This document shows, piece by piece, positions 751 to 13,915 of a DNA stretch of 15,767 nt. Both the position numbers and the translations under genes were made by a program. Position 1 is the first letter of the stretch, and every line of letters starts with the position of its first letter. Below the pieces are notes generated by a model that worked only from the letters and a program-made list of their open reading frames with translations, did not search any database and had not been told where the DNA came from. The DNA comes from an uncultured Prevotella sp. (lineage in GTDB: Bacteria; Bacteroidota; Bacteroidia; Bacteroidales; Bacteroidaceae): the NCBI GenBank assembly GCA_947303825.1, contig CAMYZK010000021.1, positions 1 to 15,767 on the forward strand, given 5' to 3'.

Positions 751-3700
751 ATGATTAGTAATATTTTCTCTACGGGCAGACAGCGCAGCGTGATGCTTGT
801 GCTGCTGCTTTTCCTGGCTGTGGCCGCTTTTGCCGTGCCTGCAAAGCCAGGTCTCTCACGTCTCTTAACGCTCACCGACGGTACTACCGTTCGCGCCACC
901 CTTGTCGGCGACGAGTATGCGCACTACTGGCTCGGTAGCGATGGAAAGAGCTACCAGATGGTGGCCGGCACCAACACCTATAAGGAGGTGAGCCGACAGG
1001 CCATCATCAAGCATGCCAGGCAGCGCCGTACACAGTCCAACATGCGCCGCTCGCGACGTCTGGCTCCACAGCGAGTGGGCGAGACGGGGGCTATGATAGG
1101 TCAGAAGAAGGGACTCATCATACTGGTCAACTTTGCCAACGCATCGTTTAAGGAGGCCAACGACAACGCCCTCTATCAGCGCATTGCCAACGAGAAGAAC
1201 TTCTCCTACGGCAAGTTCAAAGGCTCCGTGCACGACTACTTCCTTGCGCAGAGCGACGGGCTCTTCGACCTTACCTTCGACGTTGTGGGGCCCGTCACCG
1301 TGAGCGAAAACTATTCGCACTACGGAAGGAACGATTCACAAGGCAACGACCAGCACCCGGCAGAGATGATTATCGAAGCCCTTGCGCTGGCCGACCCCGA
1401 AGTGAACTTTGCCGACTACGACTGGGATGGCGACGGCACCGTAGAGCAGGTCTTTGTGGTCTATGCCGGCAAGGGCGAGGCCGACGGTGGCTCTGTTACC
1501 ACCATCTGGCCCCATGAGTTCACCCTGACAGAGGCTTTTGACTATGGCGACGGCACCGGGCCGCAGACCCTCGATGGCGTGACCATCGACACCTACGCCT
1601 GCGGTAGCGAGCTAGGCGGAGGGGGAAGCATTGCCGGCATTGGCACTATATGCCATGAGTTCAGCCACTGCCTGGGCTACCCTGACTTCTACGACACCGA
1701 CTACAGCGGCGGACAGGGCATGTTTGAGTGGGACCTGATGGACACTGGCTCGTATAACGGCGACGGCTACCGCCCCGCAGGCTACACATCCTACGAGCGG
1801 TGGGTGGCCGGATGGCGCACTCCCGAAGAACTCACCACCTCCATGCGGGTGAGCAACATGCCAGCACTGGTTAGCAAGAACGCACCCAGCTACGTTATCT
1901 ACAACCCCGGCAACCATAACGAGTACTTCCTGCTGGAGAACCGACAGCAGACTGGGTGGGACAGCGACATCCCCGGCTCAGGACTGCTCATACTGCATGT
2001 GGACTACAGCTCGGAGGCATGGGCCGAAAATACTCCCAACGATGACCCGTCGCACCAGCGCATGACATGGGTTGCAGCCGACAACGAGTATCAGTACACT
2101 CTCTATATGGGCACGAAATACTTCACCACCGAAGGTGCCGCCAACGACCCTTACCCATACAGAACGAACAACTCGTTCAGCAAGACGTCAACTCCTGCTG
2201 CAAAGCTCTACAACAAGAACGCCGATGGCACCTATTACCTCGACTGTTCTCTAGAGAACATCACTCGCAACAGCGACGGCACCATCTCGTTCAGCTTCGT
2301 AGGCATCAGCAACGTCGCCACTCCTACGTTCTCGCCGAAGGCCGGACGATATGACGATGCACAGACGGTGACCATCAGCTGCGCCACAGAGGGGGCGACA
2401 ATCTACTACACCCTCGACGGAACGAAGCCTGGCACGTCGTCCGACGTATATAGCGCTCCGCTTACCATCAGCCAGACAACCACCGTGAAGGCTGTCGCCG
2501 TGAAAGACGACGAGCCGAGTGCCGTGGCCACGGCAAGGTACTCCATAGGCCCCAGTACTAGCGACCCCACCACCACAAAGTTCAAGCGTGTTGCCTCTAC
2601 CGACGAGCTGGAGCCCGGCATGCGCTATATCATTGCCTGCGGAAGCAAGGGCATGGCCGCCGGCGCATTGAATAACACATACCTTAATAAGGAAGAGGTC
2701 ACTATCAGCAACGATGTGGCAACCATCACTGGCGACGTGGCAGTGTTCATCCTTGAGCAGGCCGGCGATGGCTGGACGTTCCTCAATGAGAGCACCAATG
2801 AGTATCTGTATGCTACCGACAAGAAGAAGGTGGCCTACAGCTCTTCCGAGAACGCATGGACGCTTGCCGACGGCAACGAGGGCGTCATCATGACATACGG
2901 AGGCTACGGCACAATGCTCTACAACGTGATCAGCCCCCGCTTCACCACCTATACCAGCAACCCTTCTGCCACAATGATACAGGCCAACCTGTACATGGAG
3001 TACAGCGACGGAGGCACCACCCCCATTGAGAAGGAAGACGTCACGATGACGTTCACTCCTGCTACGGCATCGGCCACCCTTGGCAAGCCCTTCACTGAGC
3101 CAGTGCTGACCACCAGTCCCGAAGGCCTTGCCGTGACCTATAGCAGCAGTGCACCCGCCATCGCCACTGTTGATGCCACCACCGGCAAGGTGACGCTCGT
3201 GGCTGCCGGCACCACCACCATCAAGGCCACCTTCGAGGGCAACGACAGCTATAACGGCGGCTCGGCCTCCTACAAGCTTACGGTCTCTGAGGCATCTACC
3301 GGCGGCGACCCGACAGATGATTTTGTACTTGTCACTTCCGTCGAGGAGTTTGTAGAAGGCGACTACCTCATTGTTTACGACAATGGCGCCATGAACACCA
3401 CGGTAGAGAAGAACCGCCTGCAATACTCTGAGGTGACTCCCGAAGGCGATGTCATCACCACCACCGATGCTGCCATCATCTGGCATATTGCACCCAGCGG
3501 CAGCTACTACACCATCTATAATGCTGGCCTGAGCAAATATGCAGCAAGCAACGGCACCAAGAACCAGGCTCAGCTGCTCGACGACGGTCGCGACGACAAT
3601 GCGCTGTGGACAGTGACCCCCGGCGAGACCTTTGAGTTTGTAAACAAGGGCAACGCCGACAAGGGTGTCAATGCCAACCTGCGTCGTAACGGCACTTACG

Positions 3701-5664
3701 GCTTTGCCTGCTACTCCACCTCTACGGGAGGGGCTCTGAGCCTCTACAAGCGCAGCGACGGCTCGGTGACACCTGTCGTCACTGTTGCGGCTCCCGTCAT
3801 CAGCGGTACCACGCCTTTCGACTACAGCACATCGGTGACCATCAGCTGTGCCACAGAGGGGGCAACAGTCTACTACACCCTCGACGGCACCACCCCTACC
3901 GCCGAGAGCTCGCTCTACGAGGCACCCTTCATGCTTGCCGAGACGGCCACCGTCAGTGCCATAGCCATCAAAGACGGCGTGAGCAGCACGGTGACCACCA
4001 AGGAGTTTGTACGTAATGAGATCCAGGCCGTAGCCTACTACCAGCAGGCCGACGGCAAGAGCGGCTCGGCCCTGAAGACAGCGTTGAGCAGCATCATCTA
4101 TAACCGCACCGAGAAGAGCTACGACTATCTGTGGACGGCATTTAAGACCACCGACGTGCGCAGCGACGGCAAGATATGGGACATCTACTCCAACATCACC
4201 AACTTCGTTCCCCAGACCAAAGGCTCCAACTACAGTAAGGAGGGCGACTGCTACAACCGCGAGCATGCCTTCCCGCAGAGCTGGTTTGGCAGCGGTGCTC
4301 CTATGAAGACCGACCTGCACCATGTGTTCCCCACCGACGGATATGTCAACGGACGACGCTCAAACAATCCTTACGGCGAGACCAACGGCGAGGCGTATAA
4401 GTCGGCCAACGACTTCAGCAAGCTCGGTGCCTGCACCTATCCTGGCTACATGGGCAAGGTGTTCGAACCCAACGACGACTACAAGGGCGACGTGGCCCGT
4501 GCCATCTTCTACATGGTGACCTGCTACGAGGAGCAGCTGCCCGACTGGTACTCCAGCTACACCGAGTCGCACCCCGTGCTCGACGGCACCAGCTATCCCG
4601 CCCTCACACAGTGGCAGCTCAACATGCTCATGGAGTGGGCCAAGGCCGACCCCGTCAGCGAGAAGGAGATAAACCGCAACAACGCCATTTATGACATACA
4701 GCACAACCGCAACCCCTTCGTAGACTATCCCGGACTGGAGGAGTACATCTGGGGCAGCATGACCACCACCCTGTTCAGCTACGACAACTACCAGGAGCCT
4801 ACGAGCATGCAGGCTGTCACCATGACGTTTACACCGGCTTCTGTCTCCCTGGTCCTCGGTGAGGAGTTCACCGCTCCCACGCTCACCACCCGTCCGGCCG
4901 ACCTGCCTGTCACCTACAGCAGCAGCGATCCCGCCGTGGCTACCATAGATGAGGCCACTGGCGAGGTGACCATCCTTGCTGTTGGCAAGACCATCATCAC
5001 GGCCACCTTCGAGGGCAACGAGAGCCACCTCGGCGGCTCGGCATCCTACACCCTGATAGTAAGGGAGCAGTCCTCGGGCGATGAGGAGACATTGCTCTAC
5101 GAAGGCGTCACAGGATATTCGTCTGCCGACGACAGCAACGCCGTGCTGACGGCAGAGAGCACCGCCCTCGACTTCAACAGATGGGCTTCGATAGACAAGG
5201 TGTATGCTGGAGGAACGGGCAACGCCTATAGCAACGGCGGATGCCTGAAGCTTGGCTCAAGCAAGGCGGCGGGTGCCATCTCTACAGAGCCCATAGAGCT
5301 GTTCGACAGCGGCATCCTGACCTTCTATCTCAAGCAGTATTGCAACGACGGCGGTAAGCTGAACGTCACGGTAGAGGGAGCTTCGGCCGATGCTACAGAG
5401 TTCACCCCCACCGGCGAATGGACGCTATGCACCGTGAACATCAGCAATGCCACGGGCGAGGTGGTCATCACCCTGGAGACGAGCAGCAAGCGTGCATACG
5501 TCGATGAGATCATGCTGGTAAGCAGCGAAGACTCTCCCACCACGGGAATTACCACACCCGGCGTGACAGGCAGAGCCGACACATGGTATCGTCTCGACGG
5601 GGACAGGAAGCCCACCGCGAAGGGACTGTACATCTACCAGGGCCGCCTATTCGTGATAAAGTGA
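751..5664 (+). CDS. Secreted bifunctional M6-type metalloprotease / endonuclease I fusion
   Basis: A 1637-residue exported protein. Residues 1-28 are a signal peptide ending AFA, followed by a propeptide-like segment. The protease domain (about 110-515) has an acidic Ca-type loop with D224, D226 and D228, the zinc motif H302-E303-F304-S305-H306 continuing to G309 and D312 (HExxHxxGxxD), and a Met-turn candidate at M330, as in M6 (immune inhibitor A-like) peptidases. Then come a chitobiase-C-terminal-like module (522-599), an unrecognised module (611-750), a Big_2-like module (763-845), a second copy of the unrecognised module (856-1001) and a second chitobiase-like module (1014-1088). Endonuclease I follows (1091-1335) with E1171-H1172, H1190-H1191 and N1200. 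These match the Vibrio Vvn/EndA arrangement in which Glu79 and Asn127 bind metal and His80 is the base. A second Big_2-like module (1355-1437), a jelly-roll-like region (1445-1592) and a tail (1612-1637, W-Y-R-L-D-G to V-I-K) resembling type IX sorting tails end the protein. It probably digests protein and DNA outside the cell. Both active sites look intact; the frame is continuous. Confidence 0.9.
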   Translation: MISNIFSTGRQRSVMLVLLLFLAVAAFAVPAKPGLSRLLTLTDGTTVRATLVGDEYAHYWLGSDGKSYQMVAGTNTYKEVSRQAIIKHARQRRTQSNMRRSRRLAPQRVGETGAMIGQKKGLIILVNFANASFKEANDNALYQRIANEKNFSYGKFKGSVHDYFLAQSDGLFDLTFDVVGPVTVSENYSHYGRNDSQGNDQHPAEMIIEALALADPEVNFADYDWDGDGTVEQVFVVYAGKGEADGGSVTTIWPHEFTLTEAFDYGDGTGPQTLDGVTIDTYACGSELGGGGSIAGIGTICHEFSHCLGYPDFYDTDYSGGQGMFEWDLMDTGSYNGDGYRPAGYTSYERWVAGWRTPEELTTSMRVSNMPALVSKNAPSYVIYNPGNHNEYFLLENRQQTGWDSDIPGSGLLILHVDYSSEAWAENTPNDDPSHQRMTWVAADNEYQYTLYMGTKYFTTEGAANDPYPYRTNNSFSKTSTPAAKLYNKNADGTYYLDCSLENITRNSDGTISFSFVGISNVATPTFSPKAGRYDDAQTVTISCATEGATIYYTLDGTKPGTSSDVYSAPLTISQTTTVKAVAVKDDEPSAVATARYSIGPSTSDPTTTKFKRVASTDELEPGMRYIIACGSKGMAAGALNNTYLNKEEVTISNDVATITGDVAVFILEQAGDGWTFLNESTNEYLYATDKKKVAYSSSENAWTLADGNEGVIMTYGGYGTMLYNVISPRFTTYTSNPSATMIQANLYMEYSDGGTTPIEKEDVTMTFTPATASATLGKPFTEPVLTTSPEGLAVTYSSSAPAIATVDATTGKVTLVAAGTTTIKATFEGNDSYNGGSASYKLTVSEASTGGDPTDDFVLVTSVEEFVEGDYLIVYDNGAMNTTVEKNRLQYSEVTPEGDVITTTDAAIIWHIAPSGSYYTIYNAGLSKYAASNGTKNQAQLLDDGRDDNALWTVTPGETFEFVNKGNADKGVNANLRRNGTYGFACYSTSTGGALSLYKRSDGSVTPVVTVAAPVISGTTPFDYSTSVTISCATEGATVYYTLDGTTPTAESSLYEAPFMLAETATVSAIAIKDGVSSTVTTKEFVRNEIQAVAYYQQADGKSGSALKTALSSIIYNRTEKSYDYLWTAFKTTDVRSDGKIWDIYSNITNFVPQTKGSNYSKEGDCYNREHAFPQSWFGSGAPMKTDLHHVFPTDGYVNGRRSNNPYGETNGEAYKSANDFSKLGACTYPGYMGKVFEPNDDYKGDVARAIFYMVTCYEEQLPDWYSSYTESHPVLDGTSYPALTQWQLNMLMEWAKADPVSEKEINRNNAIYDIQHNRNPFVDYPGLEEYIWGSMTTTLFSYDNYQEPTSMQAVTMTFTPASVSLVLGEEFTAPTLTTRPADLPVTYSSSDPAVATIDEATGEVTILAVGKTIITATFEGNESHLGGSASYTLIVREQSSGDEETLLYEGVTGYSSADDSNAVLTAESTALDFNRWASIDKVYAGGTGNAYSNGGCLKLGSSKAAGAISTEPIELFDSGILTFYLKQYCNDGGKLNVTVEGASADATEFTPTGEWTLCTVNISNATGEVVITLETSSKRAYVDEIMLVSSEDSPTTGITTPGVTGRADTWYRLDGDRKPTAKGLYIYQGRLFVIK
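2366..2420 (+). repeat. First copy of a near-identical 55-bp intragenic repeat
   Basis: This segment of the first chitobiase-like module matches 3833-3887 at 52 of 55 bases. It encodes VTISCATEGATIYYTLDG, one residue different from the second copy. The flanks diverge at once on both sides. Confidence 0.85.
3833..3887 (+). repeat. Second copy of the 55-bp intragenic repeat
   Basis: It matches 2366-2420 with three substitutions, in the same reading frame, inside the second chitobiase-like module. The rest of the two modules is much more diverged, so this core is unusually conserved at the DNA level. Confidence 0.85.
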
Positions 5665-5704
5665 CGGAACTTTAATAGAATAATAGTCCACCGCAATTCA
5701 ACTT

Positions 5705-5744
5705 CCGCATGAAGGGAGTGAAAGGGGGCACTCCCTTCATGCGG
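5705..5744 (+). terminator. Perfect 16-bp hairpin after the protease/nuclease gene; possible terminator or processing element
   Basis: The left arm at 5705-5720 and right arm at 5729-5744 are perfectly complementary around an 8-base loop (AAAGGGGG). The start is 41 bases after the stop codon. No U-tract follows, so this is not a textbook intrinsic terminator. It could still end or pause transcription, or protect the 3' end of the long upstream message. No promoter is visible between it and the nitroreductase gene, so some readthrough may be needed for that gene. Confidence 0.5.
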
Positions 5745-5751
5745 AGCTTGT

Positions 5752-5779
5752 GTAACTCATAATTCGTAATTCATAATTA
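5752..5779 (+). repeat. Four-unit 7-bp degenerate tandem repeat just before the nitroreductase start
   Basis: Heptads at 5752, 5759, 5766 and 5773 fit RTAAYTM (GTAACTC, ATAATTC, GTAATTC, ATAATTA). The array ends five bases before the ATG at 5785, where a ribosome binding site would normally be, and no Shine-Dalgarno sequence is present. Confidence 0.7.
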
Positions 5780-5784
5780 ATTAC

Positions 5785-6525
5785 ATGAAGTCACTCCTTA
5801 CTAGGCGTACCATACGCCGCTACAGTAACCGCCCGGTAGACGAAGAACTGCTCTCTCGCCTGCTGGAAGAGGCTGCCCGTACACAGACCATGGGCAACCT
5901 GCAGCTATACAGCGTGGTAGTCACACGCTCGCAAGAGATAAAGAAGCGGCTGGCACCCGCTCACTTCAATCAGCCCATGGTGACACAGGCACCTGTGGTT
6001 ATCACCGTCTGTGCCGACTTTAATCGCACCAGCCAGTGGGCCCGATGCAGGCAGGCCGAACCGGGTTACAATAACTTCCTCTCGTTTGTCAATGCTGCCA
6101 CCGATGCGTTGCTCTACACACAGACCCTCTGTTGTCTCATGGACGAGGAAGGGCTGGGCTACTGCTACCTTGGCACCACCGTCTACCAGCCGCAGACCAT
6201 CATAGATGTCTTGCAGCTGCCTCCACTCACCATGCCCGTGGCTACACTCACAGTAGGCTGGCCTGACGAGGAGCCTGCAATGTCCGACCGTCTGGCACCT
6301 TCAGCCTTTGTGCATCAGAACACTTACCATGACTATACCCCCGCAGATATAGACCGGCATTATACATATAAGGAGAGCTTGGAGGAGAACCGGCATTTTG
6401 TAGAAATAAACCATAAGCAGACGCTGGCACAGGTGTTCACCGATATCCGTTACACTCAGAAAGATAATGAGGCTATGAGCCAGGGGCTGCTCGACACCCT
6501 GCGCCGTCAAGGATTCTTGGAATAG
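5785..6525 (+). CDS. Nitroreductase-family flavoprotein (NfsA/FRase-like)
   Basis: A 246-residue cytoplasmic protein, the usual length for NfsA-type FMN oxidoreductases, which use NAD(P)H to reduce nitro compounds, quinones or flavins. The N-terminal FMN-phosphate motif is R7-R8-T9-I10-R11-R12-Y13. A second cofactor-contact segment at 35-40 reads TMGNLQ, where many relatives have SSGN or TSGN. The middle (about 100-160) carries the family's conserved dimer helix and a GLGYCYLGT segment (128-136). The C-terminal extension (about 190-246) ends in a helix with LAQVFTDIRYT, typical of Bacteroidales members as I remember them. The ATG at 5785 is the only start that keeps the FMN motif near the N-terminus. 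No own promoter is visible; the gene lies 120 bases after the protease/nuclease gene with a strong hairpin between them. The physiological substrate cannot be told from the sequence. Confidence 0.85.
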   Translation: MKSLLTRRTIRRYSNRPVDEELLSRLLEEAARTQTMGNLQLYSVVVTRSQEIKKRLAPAHFNQPMVTQAPVVITVCADFNRTSQWARCRQAEPGYNNFLSFVNAATDALLYTQTLCCLMDEEGLGYCYLGTTVYQPQTIIDVLQLPPLTMPVATLTVGWPDEEPAMSDRLAPSAFVHQNTYHDYTPADIDRHYTYKESLEENRHFVEINHKQTLAQVFTDIRYTQKDNEAMSQGLLDTLRRQGFLE

Positions 6526-6593
6526 GTTGTCTATCAGATTTCAACAGGTTTGCGACTATTGTAAGGCTGTCTTTTTTCTGTTGTGCAGGCTAA

Positions 6594-6627
6594 TTCGTCG
6601 AAAAGAATACGGCTTTTGGTCGAAAAG
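6594..6627 (+). promoter_or_regulatory. Paired 12-base direct repeat (TTNGTCGAAAAG) upstream of the receptor promoter; candidate LytTR-type operator
   Basis: TTCGTCGAAAAG at 6594-6605 and TTGGTCGAAAAG at 6616-6627 differ at one base and repeat every 22 bp, about two helical turns. They end three bases before the -33 element, an activator position. LytTR-family regulators commonly bind two 9-bp direct repeats with 12-13 bp between them; the identical 9-mers here (6597-6605, 6619-6627) have 13 between. A shorter GTCGAA recurs at 6664-6669 near the likely transcription start. Binding by the regulator encoded at 10262-11032 is inference. Confidence 0.45.
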
Positions 6628-6630
6628 TGC

Positions 6631-6661
6631 ATTGCTATGAATAAGCTATATGTTAACTTTG
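6631..6661 (+). promoter_or_regulatory. Bacteroidota-type promoter for the outer-membrane receptor gene
   Basis: ATTG at 6631-6634, a 19-base spacer and TAACTTTG at 6654-6661. The -7 box is perfect and the -33 box has one mismatch to TTTG, in line with a promoter helped by an activator. The predicted start near 6665 gives a leader of about 30 A-rich bases. Confidence 0.7.
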
Positions 6662-6694
6662 CCGTCGAATTAGAAACAAAACACAAAAAGGAAT

Positions 6695-9196
6695 ATGAAA
6701 CAGATTAGACTATTATTAACAACAATGCTGCTTACAGCCTCGGCAGCAATGACGGCCCAGACCACCACTGTAAAGGGTGTGCTGGTAGACAAGAACCTGG
6801 GCGACGGCGAGCCGTTTGCCACAGTACGCATTTTCAAGGCAGGCACAAAGGACAAGCCTGTGGCAATGTTTCTTACAAAAGTGGACGGACAGTTCCAGCA
6901 AGACGTGAAGGGTAAGGGCAAGTACGACATTGTGTTCAGCAGTGTGGGCAAGGACGACCTCAAACAGGCCATAGAGCTGGGTAACGGCAGCACGCTAGAC
7001 CTCGACACATTATATATTAAGACTAGTGAGAACATGCTTGGCGGAGTGGAGATTGTGGCACAGAAGCCTCTGGTGAAGATGGAGGTTGACAAGATGAGCT
7101 ACAATGTGGCCGAAGACGATGATGCCAAGGCTTCAACAGTGCTCGACATGCTGCGCAAGGTGCCAATGGTAACTGTTGACGGTCAGGACAACATAACCGT
7201 GAACGGCAGTTCGTCGTTTAAGGTATACGTTGACGGTAAGCCCAACGTGATGTTCTCATCTAATCCGTCGGTAATTTTCAAGAGCATGCCTGCTACGGCA
7301 GTTAAGAACATAGAAGTGGTGACAAACCCCGGTGCGAAGTATGATGCAGAGGGTGCCTCCGGTGTTCTCAACATTGTGCTTAACAAGCAGGCTGCCGGAG
7401 GTGCTGCCAGCATGGACGGCTACAACGGAACACTCCGTGCTGCCGCTGGAACCAATGGCTGGGGGGGCGGTGCCTTCCTCAGTGGGCAGCAAGGCAAACT
7501 GAGCTATAGTGCCAATGCTCTGTACCAGAAGATGTCGCCAAACACGACGAAGGTGGACAGCGAGATAGATCAGCAAATGATGATGCAGACCGGCAAGAGT
7601 GAGACCAAGACTCGTATTCCTGTTACCATGGGAAGCCTGTCGCTGGGCTATGACATAGACTCGATGAGTACCATGAGCCTGACAGCCGAGTTGACTAGCA
7701 TGCTGATGAAAAACACAGGAAGAACAGAGACCAATTTGCAGACATCTATGCTTGGCACCAATACGTTGGGTTGGCAATATGGCAACGACTTGGTGCTGAA
7801 GAACCGTCAGACATCGTTTAGTGCTGCTGCCGACTACCAACGCTTCTTCAACACCGAGCGCAACAGCTGGCTCACTCTGGCCTACCAGCTAAGCTATACA
7901 CCCACGCACAATGAGCAGCGCACCAACTTTGATGTGGTGACTGGCATACCCATTGACATTACCGACCGCTATAGCGACAACCATGAGAAGACCACAGAGC
8001 ACACCTTCCAGACCGATTTCACAACACCGCTGGGCAGCTCGGCAGCCAGCAAGCTGAACCTTGGCGCAAAGCTGATGGTGCGCAAGGCAACGTCGGATGC
8101 CTCCATGCTGTTCTATGACAATGCAGGAAACGTATTACAAGGCAATAGCATATACCAGGACTACGAGCACAAGAACCGCATAGGTGCCGCATACGCTGAG
8201 TATGAGGGTAAGTGGGGAAGCCTAGGGGCCAAGGCAGGCTTGCGCTATGAGCACACATGGCAGGATGTGGAGTACAAGACGGGTAACACCACCGACTTCT
8301 CTACCGACTATGGTAACCTGGTGCCGTCGGCCAGCTTGAGCTATTCGCTGGCTCCTACCAGCAATCTGGGACTGGCATACAACATGCGCATCTCCCGTCC
8401 GGGCATAACATACCTCAATCCATACGTTGACCGCTCCAGTCCCACAGCACTGACTTACGGTAACAGCGACCTCGACGTGGAAAAGATACACAACGTGGCC
8501 CTCGTCTTCAACAGCTTCAGCTCCAATCTTATGCTTAATCTCAATCTGAGTCACAACTTCACCGACAATGCCATTGAGCAGTACAGCTTTGAGAAAGACG
8601 GCATGCTCAACACCACCTATGGCAACATTGTGAAGCGTCACCAGACGACCCTCAACGGATATGCCAACTTGCTGCTGCACAAGAACACACGCCTCTTTGT
8701 CAACGGTGGTGTGAGCTACACCGACCTGCGTTCAGACGCACTCGATGCGAAGAACAACGGATGGTCGGCAAACGTTATGGCCGGTCTGCAGCAGACACTG
8801 CCTCTCGACATCAAGCTCGGTGCATACCTCATCAGCCGTACAAAGACCTATACCCTGCAAGGATGGAGTGGAGGCATGAACATGCTCATTGGCATGCTTT
8901 CGAAGACCTTCTTCAACGATAAGCTCACGCTGGGGCTTCAGGGCATGACGGGTCTTAACGACGGCGGATGCCTGAAGATAGAGACTTTCAGCAAAGGAAA
9001 CGGATTCTCAAACCACATGGACATACGTGTTCCCTTGTATGGACTTACATTCAACGTACAGTATGCCATTGGCAACACCAAGCAGCAGTTCCAGCAGCGC
9101 AGACAGACCCACATAGACAACAACTACATTGAGCAGGAGTCGCAGGGTGAGATGATAAACAGTGTGGGCTCAGACAACATGCAGAAGAAGTTTTGA
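6695..9196 (+). CDS. Outer-membrane beta-barrel receptor, TonB-dependent-receptor-like, with carboxypeptidase-regulatory domain
   Basis: An 833-residue outer-membrane protein. Residues 1-22 are a signal peptide ending in ASAAMTAQ. About 24-112 form a carboxypeptidase-regulatory-like beta-sandwich. About 125-230 form a plug-like domain with V149-L150-D151-M152-L153-R154, a VDG segment and N211-P212-G213-A-K-Y-D-A-E-G. This is the pattern of the Bacteroidota outer-membrane beta-barrel family related to TonB-dependent receptors. About 240-833 is a beta-barrel of alternating strands and asparagine-rich loops that ends in phenylalanine, as barrel proteins usually do. Such proteins import or sense a ligand at the cell surface, but the ligand is not evident. 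No SusD-like partner is adjacent, so a classical polysaccharide utilisation locus is not supported. The gene is followed 34 bases later by the histidine kinase, whose promoter overlaps its stop codon. Confidence 0.85.
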   Translation: MKQIRLLLTTMLLTASAAMTAQTTTVKGVLVDKNLGDGEPFATVRIFKAGTKDKPVAMFLTKVDGQFQQDVKGKGKYDIVFSSVGKDDLKQAIELGNGSTLDLDTLYIKTSENMLGGVEIVAQKPLVKMEVDKMSYNVAEDDDAKASTVLDMLRKVPMVTVDGQDNITVNGSSSFKVYVDGKPNVMFSSNPSVIFKSMPATAVKNIEVVTNPGAKYDAEGASGVLNIVLNKQAAGGAASMDGYNGTLRAAAGTNGWGGGAFLSGQQGKLSYSANALYQKMSPNTTKVDSEIDQQMMMQTGKSETKTRIPVTMGSLSLGYDIDSMSTMSLTAELTSMLMKNTGRTETNLQTSMLGTNTLGWQYGNDLVLKNRQTSFSAAADYQRFFNTERNSWLTLAYQLSYTPTHNEQRTNFDVVTGIPIDITDRYSDNHEKTTEHTFQTDFTTPLGSSAASKLNLGAKLMVRKATSDASMLFYDNAGNVLQGNSIYQDYEHKNRIGAAYAEYEGKWGSLGAKAGLRYEHTWQDVEYKTGNTTDFSTDYGNLVPSASLSYSLAPTSNLGLAYNMRISRPGITYLNPYVDRSSPTALTYGNSDLDVEKIHNVALVFNSFSSNLMLNLNLSHNFTDNAIEQYSFEKDGMLNTTYGNIVKRHQTTLNGYANLLLHKNTRLFVNGGVSYTDLRSDALDAKNNGWSANVMAGLQQTLPLDIKLGAYLISRTKTYTLQGWSGGMNMLIGMLSKTFFNDKLTLGLQGMTGLNDGGCLKIETFSKGNGFSNHMDIRVPLYGLTFNVQYAIGNTKQQFQQRRQTHIDNNYIEQESQGEMINSVGSDNMQKKF

Positions 9197-9223
9197 TTGG
9201 TGCGGAGAAGAATCGTAACTTTG
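9192..9223 (+). promoter_or_regulatory. Promoter of the histidine kinase gene, overlapping the receptor stop codon
   Basis: TTTG at 9192-9195, a 20-base spacer and TAACTTTG at 9216-9223. Both boxes and the spacing are canonical. The -33 box shares bases with the upstream stop codon TGA (9194-9196). The kinase ATG begins only seven bases after the -7 box, so the transcript would have almost no leader. Confidence 0.75.
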
Positions 9224-9230
9224 TAGCCTG

Positions 9231-10265
9231 ATGAAAAAGTTTGAAAGGAAGGACATATACTTGTTGATGGTGCAGGTGGCAGTGTGGGCAGTAATAATGC
9301 TTGCGCTGCCACTGGCAACGCTTCTGGGAACTCGCAGCTGGGAGCCCACGGCCACGTCGTGGCAGATGGTGTGGGACATGTTCCGCTCGCCATTGGTGAT
9401 ATACTTTGCTAACTTCTATGTTTTCGGCCCCAAACTCTTCTTCCGCCGCAAATACTGGCTTTTCTCTCTGTGCAACCTGCTGCTCATGGCTTTGTTGAAC
9501 TACAAATTCTTCTTTGTGGGCGAATACATGCCAGAGATGCCAGAGACAGCATGGATAGGATTCTTCTTGGGCATCTTTATCTTCGTGCTGCTCAACTTCT
9601 TCATGGGGGCTATAGCTATCGGGGTGCGCCATTTCATGCAGGTGAGCAAGATAAAGCAGCAACTTAAAGACGCCCAGGCCAAGAGCATAGAGGCAGAGCT
9701 GGCATGGCTTAAGAACCAGATAAACCCGCACTTCCTTTTCAATACGCTGAACAACATTTCCAGCCTTACACAGATAGACCCCGACGCAGCCCAGGACTCA
9801 ATAGCACAATTGAGCGACCTGCTGCGCTACGCCATGTACGAGACTAATAAAGACACCGTACCCATAAGCGGAGAGGTGGAGTTCATGCGCAACTATATCT
9901 CACTCATGAAGTTAAGGTGCAATGAGAAGGCAGAGGTGTTATGTCGGTTCTCTGTAGACAATGCCCAACAGGGTATAGCCCCTCTGCTCTTCATCTCAAT
10001 AATAGAGAATGCATTCAAACATGGAGTAAGCAGCAGCAGGGCATCAAAGATAGACATAAACTTTGAACAGCACAACGACACCATAACCTTCTCGTGCGAT
10101 AACACCAACTACCCGAAAGACGACTCAGACCGCAGCGGTTCAGGTATAGGCCTGGAGAACACCCGACGTCGTCTTGACCTGATGTACAAGGGCAAATACT
10201 CTTGGCAGCAGTCGCTGGAAGACGGAATCTATCATATTTGTATTTCCATAAACATGAAGAAATGA
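9231..10265 (+). CDS. LytS/YehU-type sensor histidine kinase
   Basis: A 344-residue inner-membrane sensor kinase. Four hydrophobic segments lie at about 9-32, 54-71, 75-96 and 108-132, followed by a charged coiled-coil-like linker (about 134-162). The phosphoacceptor box holds H167 in the N-P-H-F-L-F-N context typical of the His_kinase (LytS) family. The ATP-binding domain shows the N box E259-N260-A-F-K-H-G265 and a G box with G305-I306-G307-L308 followed by E-N-T-R-R-R. There is no periplasmic sensor domain of any size, so it probably senses within the membrane or through a partner protein. The regulator gene starts inside its stop codon (ATGA), which indicates translational coupling. It should phosphorylate the LytTR regulator at 10262-11032. 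The start at 9231 is preferred because it gives a basic N-terminus before the first membrane segment. Confidence 0.92.
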   Translation: MKKFERKDIYLLMVQVAVWAVIMLALPLATLLGTRSWEPTATSWQMVWDMFRSPLVIYFANFYVFGPKLFFRRKYWLFSLCNLLLMALLNYKFFFVGEYMPEMPETAWIGFFLGIFIFVLLNFFMGAIAIGVRHFMQVSKIKQQLKDAQAKSIEAELAWLKNQINPHFLFNTLNNISSLTQIDPDAAQDSIAQLSDLLRYAMYETNKDTVPISGEVEFMRNYISLMKLRCNEKAEVLCRFSVDNAQQGIAPLLFISIIENAFKHGVSSSRASKIDINFEQHNDTITFSCDNTNYPKDDSDRSGSGIGLENTRRRLDLMYKGKYSWQQSLEDGIYHICISINMKK

Positions 10266-11032
10266 ACTTGTCATGCATCATTGTTGACGACGAGCCCCTG
10301 GCCGTCAGACTTCTTGAGTCTTTTGTAGCCAAGACACCTGGGCTTACGCTCATGGCCTCCTTCACCGACCCTGTGGAAGCAGTGAATGCCGTAAAAGAAA
10401 ACAGGCCCGACTTGCTTTTCCTCGACATACAGATGCCCGACATTAACGGTATGGAGCTGGCACATGTCATACCTGAGGAAACACGCGTCATTTTTACAAC
10501 AGCATTCAAGGAATATGCCTTTGAGAGCTATGAAGTGAGCGCGCTCGACTTCCTGCTCAAGCCCATAAGATACAACAAGTTCGTTGCGGCGGTAGAGAAG
10601 GCAAGAATGTGGTTTGAAAGAACACATGAGACTATTGTGGAGAATAGTCGGGATTATGAAACCAGAAACGAAGAAACTATTTTCCTCAAGGTGGACGGCG
10701 AATATCAGCAGGTGTCGCTCTCAAATGTGCTGTATGTAAGCGGAATGAAAGACTACGTGATGTTCTACCTTGATGATAAAAGGCAGCTGGCTGTAGAGCA
10801 AGGCAAGGCATCAAGGCCGCTTGTCACACATCTCACAATGAAGGCGGTAGAAGAGATGCTTCCGCAGGACAAGTTCATGCGGGTGAACCGTTCTTATATC
10901 GTGGCATTGGACAAGATACGCAAGGTAGACCGAAATGACTGCATCTACATAGGTGGTGAGATAATACATGTTACCGATGCATACCTGGATAAATTTCTTG
11001 AATACCTGAAGAGCAGATGCCCGGGATGCTAA
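10262..11032 (+). CDS. LytTR-family response regulator
   Basis: A 256-residue cytoplasmic DNA-binding regulator, partner of the upstream kinase. The receiver domain (about 3-118) has the acidic pocket D9-D10, the phosphoacceptor D55 in L-F-L-D-I-Q-M-P-D, T79/T80 and K100-P101. The LytTR domain (about 150-250) carries the family signature F-M-R-V-N-R-S-Y-I-V. LytTR domains bind paired 9-bp direct repeats and usually activate transcription. The start is placed at 10262 because it overlaps the kinase stop as ATGA and puts the receiver's first strand at the N-terminus. The open frame extends 20 codons further upstream, but that part lies inside the kinase gene. A likely target is the paired repeat before the receptor gene. 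Confidence 0.93.
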   Translation: MNLSCIIVDDEPLAVRLLESFVAKTPGLTLMASFTDPVEAVNAVKENRPDLLFLDIQMPDINGMELAHVIPEETRVIFTTAFKEYAFESYEVSALDFLLKPIRYNKFVAAVEKARMWFERTHETIVENSRDYETRNEETIFLKVDGEYQQVSLSNVLYVSGMKDYVMFYLDDKRQLAVEQGKASRPLVTHLTMKAVEEMLPQDKFMRVNRSYIVALDKIRKVDRNDCIYIGGEIIHVTDAYLDKFLEYLKSRCPGC

Positions 11033-11106
11033 TCCCCCCAGGAAGCTAATAGACTCTGTTGTGGTATTTTTTCCCCCATTTGTTATCGAAATAAAAAGAT
11101 AATTGC

Positions 11107-11127
11107 TACCTTTGCCGAAAAAAAAAA
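11107..11127 (+). promoter_or_regulatory. -7 box and A10 tract before the MG2-domain gene
   Basis: TACCTTTG at 11107-11114 is a perfect -7 box, and transcription would begin at about 11118-11121, inside a run of ten A (11118-11127). A TTTG occurs at 11079-11082, but its 24-base spacer is longer than usual, so the -33 element is poor. The gene probably has its own, perhaps activator-dependent, promoter rather than relying only on the kinase-regulator message. Confidence 0.6.
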
Positions 11128-11134
11128 GATTAGC

Positions 11135-13915
11135 ATGTTTAAGAATGCCGTTATATACCTTCTGCTGGCTATTACTTCACTTGCCTCTAATGCACAAGTT
11201 ACGCTCGACAGCATAGGCACATTGCTGGCAAACGCCCCTGTTCAGGAAAAAGCATATTTACACCTGGACAATACCTGCTACTTTAAAGGCGATACCATTT
11301 GGTACAAGAGCTATGTAGTGCGTGCCGACGACCTGACCTATACTGATATGAGCAGAATACTGTATGTAGAGCTGGTATCGCCCGACGGATTGGTGGTGGA
11401 AAGGCAGAGCATGATTGTATCATCCGACGGCTATGGCGACGGCAATTTTGCCATTCCGGACTCGCTCTATTCTGGCTACTATGAGCTGAGAGCTTATACA
11501 CGGTGGATGCTGAACTTCAAGGTGAGTTCACACCAATATACTCGTACCGACAGGGAACAGTTCTACAACAGTATGATGGCGAGAGACTTCTTCAGACAAT
11601 ACGGTACAATATACAGTCGCGTCGTTCCTATTTATGAACGGCCAGACTCTGCTGGCGGCTACTCGCAGAAATACATAGTTAATCGTCCGAAGACAAGATT
11701 GGAAAAAGAGCAGAAGGAAAACCTTACTGTGAACTTCTATCCCGAAGGTGGACATCTCATAGCAGGCACCAAGTGTGCGGTGGCTTTTGAGGCATTGGGG
11801 GCAGACGGTGAACAGGTCGACGTGAAAGGCATACTGGAGCTGTCTGGCAGGAATATTGCCATCGCTACTGAACACCAGGGTAGGGGAGCGTTTACCATTG
11901 ATGTGCCAGAGAACGGCAGCATGAAAGCCAGATTCGACTATCATGGAAAGAAATATACCTTTGACTTGCCCAAAGTAGAGAAGCAGGGGTGCGCTCTTCG
12001 TCTTGATGCTTCTGGCGACAGACTTATAGCCGACATCTCTCTGAAAGGCAAAGGCTCTAGCTGTGAATACGGAGTAGCGGTGCTTTGCAGAGGTGTGCTA
12101 AAGCATTTCGAGAAGCTTACTGGTGACAGCCGCATACGGCTGGACTCATTGCAGTTGCCCACCGGTGTTTGTGACTTGATTGTGATAGACAGCGATGGGC
12201 GGGCCATGGCCGACCGTCTCTTCTTTGTAAACAACCACGATGTTGCCATGCAGCCTGTCACCGTGAGCGGCGTCAACGATGAATACCAGCCATACGACTC
12301 TATTGCACTGCATTTCCAGATGCCTGTAGGCACAAAGCACATTTCTATCAGTGTGCGCGATGGTGCATCCGACGACCCCACGTACGACACAGGCTCTATC
12401 ATGACTGACTTGCTGCTGGGCAGTGAACTGAAGGGATTCATTCCATACCCACACTATTACTTTGAAACCGACGATGAACAGCATCGCCGACATCTTGACC
12501 TGCTGATGATGGTGCAGGGGTGGCGCAGATACGACTATGCCGAGATTACCCGCGATGTCCCATTACGGTACGAACCAGAGAAGACGTTGACCGTAGAGGG
12601 CGCAGTATACAAGACAGTAGACTTTGAAGACCTGCGTGAGTGTGAGGTTCCCTATTGGCTTACAGGCATCTTCGGTTACTGCCAAGACGATGAAGACCAT
12701 AAAGACCCCAACGACCCTTCCAACATGAAGCAGTATGAGGAGTCTGAGACACTTACCACCCCCGATGGCTCTTTGGAGCTGGAGGAGATGGGAGTGATAG
12801 AGAAAGAAGCTGTGCCCGAAAGCGTGGTAGACCCTGAATTTGGCATTAACCACGGCGGTCTTGGATATGAGGTGGTGGTTAACGGTGAACTGGTCGTGGG
12901 AAAGGATGTTGCTACCGTAGACATGGAGACTACCAATGGTGGACAGTTCATGTTTAACGTTCCTCCCTTCTACGGCGATGGTATTCTTTTCCTCAGTGCG
13001 CATAAGAAAGACATCAGCGAAAAGAAATTGCATAAACTCGACACAAAGGGACGCCTGGACGAAGATGCATGGCCCGAGTACTACGTCAAGAGAAACTTGT
13101 TCTATCCTGTCTTTGCACGTAAATATGACTATTACCAGTGTCATATACCTGAAGAAGACCCATTAAACTTCGACAGTGGCTATGTGGCAGACACAGGACG
13201 TATTTCCAAGTTCGACACTGAACTAGACAACATTGATGTGAAATCGCACCGCCGTCGTGGGCGGCACGCCATTGACTATAGTAAGCCTGCCTATGTCTAC
13301 GATGCCTATGAGCTTTACAATCTGGCTACCGACTATGGACTGAGTTTCGGAAAACTTAACTTCCGGCGTTTCCCCATACAAGTCAGCATGCTGCTCCTAG
13401 GCAACTACAATAGCAAGCGCTTTTTCAACGTGCAGGCCAGGATGAGCGACGATATGGAGAAACCATACCTCTTCTACCGTAACTTCAAACCCGATGAGTC
13501 TGTCAACACCATGGCTTTCCGCAGCAATCATGCTATCGCATCCAATCTAAGACTCAACAGGCAGAACGAGATACGGCTCTTCACCGACTTTGAACTGCGT
13601 AATGAAGACAAGCCTATAGAGCAGTCTACGAGTGTGGCCGATGTCACCCTCGACTTTATGCTGATGCCAAGCGGGTCGAAACGCTATACCTATCGCGACC
13701 GTCGTATCATCTTCCACGGAATGTATGAGCCCGATGATTTCTATCATCCCGACTACAGCAACAGGGCAACTGATGCCATGCCTGCCGATTATCGACGCAC
13801 GCTCTATTGGAACCCCAATGCTCGTCCCGACGAGGATGGCGGCTTTACTGCCCGTTTCTATAACAATGGAAAGGCTACACGCATCAAAGTGAGCACCGCA
13901 GGAGTGTTCAGGTGA
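11135..13915 (+). CDS. MG2-domain (alpha-2-macroglobulin-like) surface or periplasmic protein
   Basis: A 926-residue exported protein with a signal peptide (1-20, ending SLASNA). Residues about 37-130 match an MG2-type module: Q-E-K-A-Y-L-H-L-D, then K-G-D-T-I-W-Y-K, and a strand pair ending in R-A-Y-T-R-W124-M-L-N-F. About 199-285 is a second beta-sandwich that starts with F-Y-P-E-G-G. A conserved V-Q-G-W463-R-R-Y segment follows, then a regulatory-like sandwich from about 480 interrupted by an acidic insert (about 516-575). The C-terminal part (about 640-926) includes L-Y-W892-N-P near the end. These features recur in large Bacteroidota proteins annotated as MG2-domain or plug-like proteins of unknown role; I recognise no catalytic residue. 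The protein stops soon after the final conserved strand. Its position after a two-component pair, with an outer-membrane receptor on the other side, suggests an envelope function. The biochemical role is unknown. Confidence 0.75.
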   Translation: MFKNAVIYLLLAITSLASNAQVTLDSIGTLLANAPVQEKAYLHLDNTCYFKGDTIWYKSYVVRADDLTYTDMSRILYVELVSPDGLVVERQSMIVSSDGYGDGNFAIPDSLYSGYYELRAYTRWMLNFKVSSHQYTRTDREQFYNSMMARDFFRQYGTIYSRVVPIYERPDSAGGYSQKYIVNRPKTRLEKEQKENLTVNFYPEGGHLIAGTKCAVAFEALGADGEQVDVKGILELSGRNIAIATEHQGRGAFTIDVPENGSMKARFDYHGKKYTFDLPKVEKQGCALRLDASGDRLIADISLKGKGSSCEYGVAVLCRGVLKHFEKLTGDSRIRLDSLQLPTGVCDLIVIDSDGRAMADRLFFVNNHDVAMQPVTVSGVNDEYQPYDSIALHFQMPVGTKHISISVRDGASDDPTYDTGSIMTDLLLGSELKGFIPYPHYYFETDDEQHRRHLDLLMMVQGWRRYDYAEITRDVPLRYEPEKTLTVEGAVYKTVDFEDLRECEVPYWLTGIFGYCQDDEDHKDPNDPSNMKQYEESETLTTPDGSLELEEMGVIEKEAVPESVVDPEFGINHGGLGYEVVVNGELVVGKDVATVDMETTNGGQFMFNVPPFYGDGILFLSAHKKDISEKKLHKLDTKGRLDEDAWPEYYVKRNLFYPVFARKYDYYQCHIPEEDPLNFDSGYVADTGRISKFDTELDNIDVKSHRRRGRHAIDYSKPAYVYDAYELYNLATDYGLSFGKLNFRRFPIQVSMLLLGNYNSKRFFNVQARMSDDMEKPYLFYRNFKPDESVNTMAFRSNHAIASNLRLNRQNEIRLFTDFELRNEDKPIEQSTSVADVTLDFMLMPSGSKRYTYRDRRIIFHGMYEPDDFYHPDYSNRATDAMPADYRRTLYWNPNARPDEDGGFTARFYNNGKATRIKVSTAGVFR

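Follow-up and report, generated by a model that had tools for sequence, protein, structure and literature searches.

A recurrent fusion of an M6 metalloprotease with endonuclease I in Prevotella and its relatives, and exchange of the protease for a subtilase

The window analyzed here, a stretch of 15,767 nucleotides from an uncultured Prevotella sp. (contig CAMYZK010000021.1 of assembly GCA_947303825.1), contains a gene encoding an M6-type zinc metalloprotease and, downstream in the same reading frame, an endonuclease I (EndoI) domain. The M6–EndoI fusion is no chance join. A database check for architectures with both enzymes, proposed in an earlier note on this DNA, found them in 88 of the 120 best homologues (of 1332; the window's protein counted), with the M6 domain first in all 88. 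Furthermore, in a second group of proteins a nearly identical DNase half follows an unrelated protease, a subtilase of family S8. The fusion is somewhat more probably than not a modular exoenzyme that would co-deliver proteolysis and DNA hydrolysis.

Domain organization of the fusion protein

The gene and its recognizable parts are as follows (positions in the window, all on the plus strand).

751–5664, plus strand: M6 protease–endonuclease I fusion gene (1637 codons plus stop; ATG start, stop-free inside)
751–834, plus strand: Sec-type signal peptide, residues 1–28 (AFA/VPA), read from sequence; helix 2–26 in the structure model
835–1086, plus strand: propeptide-like N-terminal region, residues 29–112; strands and a helix ahead of the protease core in the model
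1096–2307, plus strand: M6 metalloprotease, residues 116–519
1654–1686, plus strand: HExxHxxGxxD zinc motif, residues 302–312, present in 88 of 88 M6–nuclease fusions
2326–2550, plus strand: CHB_HEX_C_1/Fn3_assoc domain 1, residues 526–600
2578–3009, plus strand: beta-trefoil (ricin-B-lectin-like) domain 1, residues 610–753
3043–3294, plus strand: Big_2-like Ig domain, residues 765–848 (weaker Ig-like match at 786–826; strands in the model)
3325–3780, plus strand: beta-trefoil domain 2, residues 859–1010
3817–4005, plus strand: CHB_HEX_C_1/Fn3_assoc domain 2, residues 1023–1085 (Pfam match; module analysis of homologues)
4063–4731, plus strand: endonuclease I domain, residues 1105–1327 (Pfam 251.4 bits, cut-off 25; aligns to 1oup)
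4258–4350, plus strand: nuclease active-site stretch REH...DLHH...N, residues 1170–1200 (sequence; alignment)
4822–5007, plus strand: Big_2 Ig-like domain 2, residues 1358–1419
5089–5526, plus strand: reelin/meprin-like jelly-roll domain, residues 1447–1592
5563–5661, plus strand: short C-terminal tail (WYRLDG...KGLYIYQGRLFVIK), possible sorting signal (ad hoc tail pattern)

Matches to Pfam and NCBIfam models for both enzymes share this one frame, as do two stretches each of CHB_HEX_C_1/Fn3_assoc and Big_2, and the catalytic residues stand where the earlier note had placed them; its central observation, an unbroken frame with two active sites, is thus confirmed. Homologues 50–65% identical to the fusion protein cover 81–98% of it in a single alignment that spans the join (e.g., P0003, P0006–P0008, P0014–P0016, P0022, and P0038), which makes it very unlikely that codons 845–860 conceal a stop, a frameshift, or a misassembly. 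The GC content at third codon positions is 0.756 in the fusion gene and 0.57–0.67 in its window neighbors, and over nine homologous loci the GC difference is not consistent, which gives little ground for a recent acquisition of the gene.

The protease belongs to the M6 family, with Pfam Peptidase_M6 matching residues 139–348 (69.9 bits, cut-off 22) and the NCBIfam M6 domain TIGR03296 matching residues 124–416 (204.5 bits, cut-off 110.8). The zinc motif reads H302-E303-F-S-H306...G309...D312, and none of H302, E303, H306, and D312 varies across 46 aligned rows. An InhA-type M6 fold is backed by the structure model, in which the protease is matched best by InhA2 (4yu5), over residues 116–519; the InhA2 chain aligned there is a zymogen, and residues 29–112 of the fusion protein are, judging from the model, probably a propeptide. 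The fusion differs from InhA2 and immune inhibitor A (Peptidase_M6, PF05547) in the trefoils, Ig-like domains, and EndoI domain that follow the protease, and we know of no InhA protein with a nuclease.

The nuclease domain is likewise a member of its family, endonuclease I (PF04231), to which both its 251-bit match and its REH/DLHH/N active-site stretch liken it. R1170-E1171-H1172 and N1200 were found at the expected positions, and E1171, H1172, and N1200—whose roles we take to be those of their counterparts in the Vibrio nuclease—are invariant in 48 aligned rows. The domain aligns to nuclease 1oup (E = 4.7e-8) over the DLHH...N part but not the REH part. Unlike the crystallized chains of the family, which are 210–231 residues long, it is embedded behind a protease in a chain of 1637 residues. 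Structure prediction, suggested in the earlier note as a check on both active sites, supported the M6 fold and was uninformative for the nuclease half, where the model (pLDDT about 35–57) is too poor to use and the fold matches listed lie elsewhere in the protein; such a model is no argument against an EndoI fold.

As had been claimed, one chain thus combines two complete catalytic domains with a signal peptide, the latter recognized by reading the sequence, and the probable destination of the protein is the cell surface or the medium. A tail like that of the window's protein occurs in 55 of 102 fusions by an ad hoc pattern, and a looser form in 29 more. The type IX sorting domain TIGR04183 gave no match on the fusion protein at E values up to 0.1; the genome itself has 10 TIGR04183 matches (9 over the cut-off), none on the contig of the fusion gene, and the type IX translocon protein SprA (2612 bits). 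Passage beyond the inner membrane is something we infer, since the genome has SprA and ten sorting-domain matches but the tail of the fusion fits no such model.

Occurrence among homologues and genomes

Both catalytic signatures, HExxHxxGxxD and [RK]EHxxP, are intact in all 88 M6–nuclease fusions among the best 120 homologues, and DLHH is present in 85, varying in P0003, P0037, and P0040. Around this constant core the accessory modules are repeatedly shared, giving 42 module strings among the 120. The homologue sequences come mostly from metagenome assemblies, and where source names are given for fusions, they read just "endonuclease" or "M6 family metalloprotease"; the sources of P0074 and P0075 are named Alloprevotella and Bacteroidaceae. 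Of the loci taken from named genome contigs, 80 in all, 12 hold M6–EndoI fusions, in assemblies assigned to Prevotella, Prevotellaceae, Bacteroidaceae, or Bacteroidales. The titles of six of these 12 contigs name a ruminant or the rumen, and a suggested use in degrading neutrophil DNA–protein traps was not borne out.

Across 200 sampled genomes of the genus, EndoI was matched in 128 and M6 in 189, the latter with 1–10 M6 genes each. Among the EndoI matches listed, at least five genomes (G000, G112, G156, G161, and G196) carry an M6–EndoI fusion and at least one (G219) an S8–EndoI fusion. Protease–EndoI fusion is uncommon per genome. In the genome that the window comes from (71% complete), M6 was matched three times and EndoI once. 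In a family-wide sample, which reaches beyond the genus, EndoI was present in 100 of 251 genomes; among the frames listed from these genomes, none with EndoI exceeds 1250 residues besides that of the window, and seven regions with long EndoI frames (eight frames of 873–1218 residues) showed no M6 or S8 domain by our own models.

Exchange of the protease

Two frames in the fused clade of a first nuclease tree (at loci L143 and L082) lack M6 and have, by Pfam, a subtilase S8 domain at that spot; at L082 (positions 3880–8922) the S8 part is split across two adjacent frames. Our own models identified 14 S8–EndoI proteins among the best 120 of 644 matches to the L143 protein, and precomputed Pfam sets give 16. 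In all 14, S8 lies upstream of the nuclease and [RK]EHxxP is kept, with DLHH varying in P0126. Of the S8 active-site patterns, HGTHTA and GTSMA are present in all 14 proteins, and D[TS]G in 13 within the stretch searched.

The nuclease halves of S8 and M6 versions are closely similar: 92.6% identical over 1080 residues for P0122 and P0043, 82.4% over 1177 residues for P0128 and P0044, 78.2% over 1076 residues for P0127 and P0044, and 77.4% over 1122 residues for P0132 and P0007. Individual pairs may still reflect a chimeric assembly; P0122, P0043, and P0044 are each represented on one contig, P0127 on nine (the longest of 187 kb), and P0121 on four (155 kb).

S8 forms are interspersed with M6 forms in a tree built from 115 nuclease domains, where the 15 S8-linked rows need 12 label changes, eight of them forced by starred branches; a single clade of S8 forms was rejected (AU p = 1.2e-52). 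The clade containing the window's nuclease has 69 rows, of which 68 are protease-linked (53 to M6 and 15 to S8) and one to neither. Like all those built, this tree is of the quick kind; it samples the neighborhood of the fused clade with 25 of the 87 single rows that are unfused and leaves out five cut copies of fused frames (L001, L114, L118, L121, and L128). Standalone S8 frames beside M6 genes or within about 2.3 kb of them were found at seven of 240 loci scanned, and raw material for a protease exchange is thus available. These exoprotease clusters (L048, L060, L061, L064, L006, L015, and L092) comprise five divergent arrangements and two in the same direction.

A search anchored on EndoI, with the scored stretch free of protease, returned 16 protease fusions (14 M6 and two S8) among the best 120 of 4337 matches. 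One further match among the 120, P0251, joins EndoI to two other domains, presumably DUF1254/DUF1214, and two further accessions, PF22359 and PF26770, occur among the EndoI-anchored matches. At another locus (L155, positions 7850–11287, genome G169), EndoI stands behind an alpha-galactosidase (Melibiase_2) with NPCBM domains, and no second fusion of this kind was present among the best 120 EndoI-anchored matches. Dockerin domains (PF00404) occur on several M6, S8, and EndoI proteins (P0037, P0040, P0088, P0133, P0140, and P0142–P0147; L186 and L176), which hints at a possible cellulosome-like docking of proteases and nucleases.

Genomic context and origin of the fusion

EndoI genes of the genus were examined with their surroundings in 100 regions, some ending at contig edges, and four M6–EndoI fusions and one S8–EndoI fusion (that of L143) were present. 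In 10 of the 100, or 9 of 97 when three regions picked out of listed order are left out, a separate M6 gene on the strand of EndoI adjoins it immediately; in one more, M6 lies about 3.6 kb away. M6 followed by EndoI with short gaps was also seen at L035, L036, and L052. Since M6 genes number only 1–10 per genome, chance adjacency would by our own estimate be expected in under one case. Unfused neighbors of this kind point to a gene pair that is able to travel together and is available for fusion, and the expectation that the fusion arose from otherwise separate genes is upheld. The remaining 84 regions have no M6 gene, one of them (L216) having an S8 gene about 5 kb off; with 84 of 100 EndoI genes neither fused to nor beside an M6 or S8 protease, the pairing is optional. 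One locus in a one-contig genome (L165; G157, contig C1, 195488–198746) holds a tandem of three endonuclease I genes.

In the window, the fusion gene is followed at 6695–11029 by genes for a TonB-type outer-membrane beta-barrel (OMP_b-brl_3), a His_kinase-family (PF06580) sensor, and a LytTR response regulator, and a frame resembling glycoside hydrolase family 30, cut at the window edge, lies at 3–509 on the minus strand. No neighbor in the window recurs beside the fused gene at 14 other loci, counting frames of at least 120 residues, which fits a self-standing exoenzyme. Neighbors are shared pairwise at other loci (L034/L072, L068/L072, L033/L082, and L150/L082).

Fusion as one event was rejected, as placing all fused nucleases in one clade gives an AU p of 0.005. 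In two nuclease trees, the P0003 nuclease groups among unfused, mostly M6-adjacent nucleases (97% SH-aLRT), and that of P0012 groups with nucleases from M6 clusters (100%). Fused and unfused rows are also interleaved in the M6 tree (16 changes, six of them forced), which carries a long-branch warning. A single fusion point near residues 846–855, as suggested previously, is not supported: the blocks common to S8 and M6 versions start just after the protease in P0129/P0020, P0132/P0007, and P0125/P0035, inside the accessory part in P0127/P0044 and P0127/P0020, and shortly before the nuclease in P0122/P0043. At the named-contig loci, unfused EndoI genes begin with the nuclease and have their accessory domains after it, and many unfused M6 proteins already bear a trefoil and further accessory domains; the second trefoil was therefore more likely brought in by the protease partner.

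Proposed function

In the mechanism proposed, the signal peptide would take the chain across the inner membrane, probably to the surface or medium; the M6 zinc protease, similar to InhA, would probably start out as a proenzyme. Protease and endonuclease I would then share a scaffold in which lectin-like trefoils and a jelly-roll are combined with Ig-like domains; the trefoil and jelly-roll modules may anchor the enzyme to glycans or cell debris. Its likely job would be to break down, in one place, DNA coated with protein, from lysed microbes or biofilm matrix, with a gain in nutrients; the joint digestion of protein and DNA foreseen in the earlier note is retained as the likely use. The active sites would be co-delivered, and a fixed geometry between them would not be needed. 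The spacer between protease and nuclease ranges from 222 to 1234 residues in M6 fusions and from 373 to 1351 in S8 fusions; this loose spacing, the weakly conserved linkers, and the repeated use of two proteases fit co-delivery better than structural coupling or a programmed cut. That the same DNase is paired with unrelated proteases suggests a benefit from combining the two activities.

It is unlikely, though worth weighing, that the fusions reflect domain shuffling without function, in which clustered exoenzyme genes with similar accessory domains recombine, the activities stay independent, and the join is neutral or merely shares an export or attachment signal. The many module strings built from shared accessory domains would be expected of such a process, as would the closeness of M6, S8, and EndoI genes to one another, the one EndoI joined to an alpha-galactosidase instead, and the unfused state of most EndoI genes. 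However, the recurrent enzyme partner of EndoI is a protease (16 among the best 120 EndoI-anchored matches, against the single P0251), the domain order is fixed, and all but one of the 69 rows in the main fused nuclease clade are protease-fused, in the tree whose 25 unfused single rows were drawn from near that clade.

A self-processing precursor, whose protease cuts the chain and frees the nuclease as a separate soluble enzyme, was raised in the earlier note and is rather doubtful. It would be in keeping with the zymogen nature of the closest structural match to the protease and with the fused partners of both kinds being proteases. Release at a set site is weakened, however, by the variable M6–EndoI spacer and by linkers whose identity to the window's protein is 0.37–0.59 in 14 proteins, against 0.71–0.73 for the catalytic domains, with some accessory domains as low (0.33–0.39, partly through gaps). 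The nuclease is, in addition, flanked by accessory domains on both sides, and the two protease classes would need differing cut sites. An antibacterial protein resembling a polymorphic toxin, with a releasing peptidase and a nuclease directed against rival bacteria, is highly improbable: the order of protease then nuclease is like the layout of such toxins, where a releasing peptidase stands ahead of the toxin, but the nuclease is not C-terminal (the chain runs on for 310 residues past the Pfam EndoI match here, and for a median of 494.5 in the 88 fusions), no neighboring frame of at least 120 residues recurs between the window and the 14 loci, and endonuclease I is a family of ordinary secreted nucleases.

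The preferred reading, a co-delivering exoenzyme, has partial parallels among known systems. Modular multi-enzyme exoenzymes such as multicatalytic glycoside hydrolases carry several catalytic and binding modules per exported chain and exchange these modules. The fusion is alike in its modular, apparently exported chain with module exchange, but combines a protease with a nuclease and has a whole protease class exchanged. In the genus itself, Prevotella intermedia NucA and NucD are secreted DNases that act on the DNA of biofilms and neutrophil traps (PMC12568770); the fusion may likewise be a secreted DNase, and in the portion of that article consulted no protease fusion is mentioned and the words "metalloprotease" and "endonuclease" are absent. 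No paper on an M6–EndoI fusion appeared among the search results listed from openly licensed literature.

Significance

With nearly identical DNase halves on two unrelated proteases, these proteins form a natural experiment in enzyme modularity, in which the question of why such activities fuse becomes testable by direct comparison. Single-chain protease–DNase reagents are a possible by-product. More broadly, and with confidence evenly balanced, gut Prevotella and their kin in ruminants may keep a class of protease–DNase exoenzymes, with a DNase lineage that stays protease-linked while its protease is swapped between M6 zinc and S8 serine types; selection would then act on co-delivery, that is, on a one-chain enzyme for nucleoprotein debris. 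The fusions also point to digestion of nucleoprotein from dead cells and biofilms as a possible trait of gut Prevotella.
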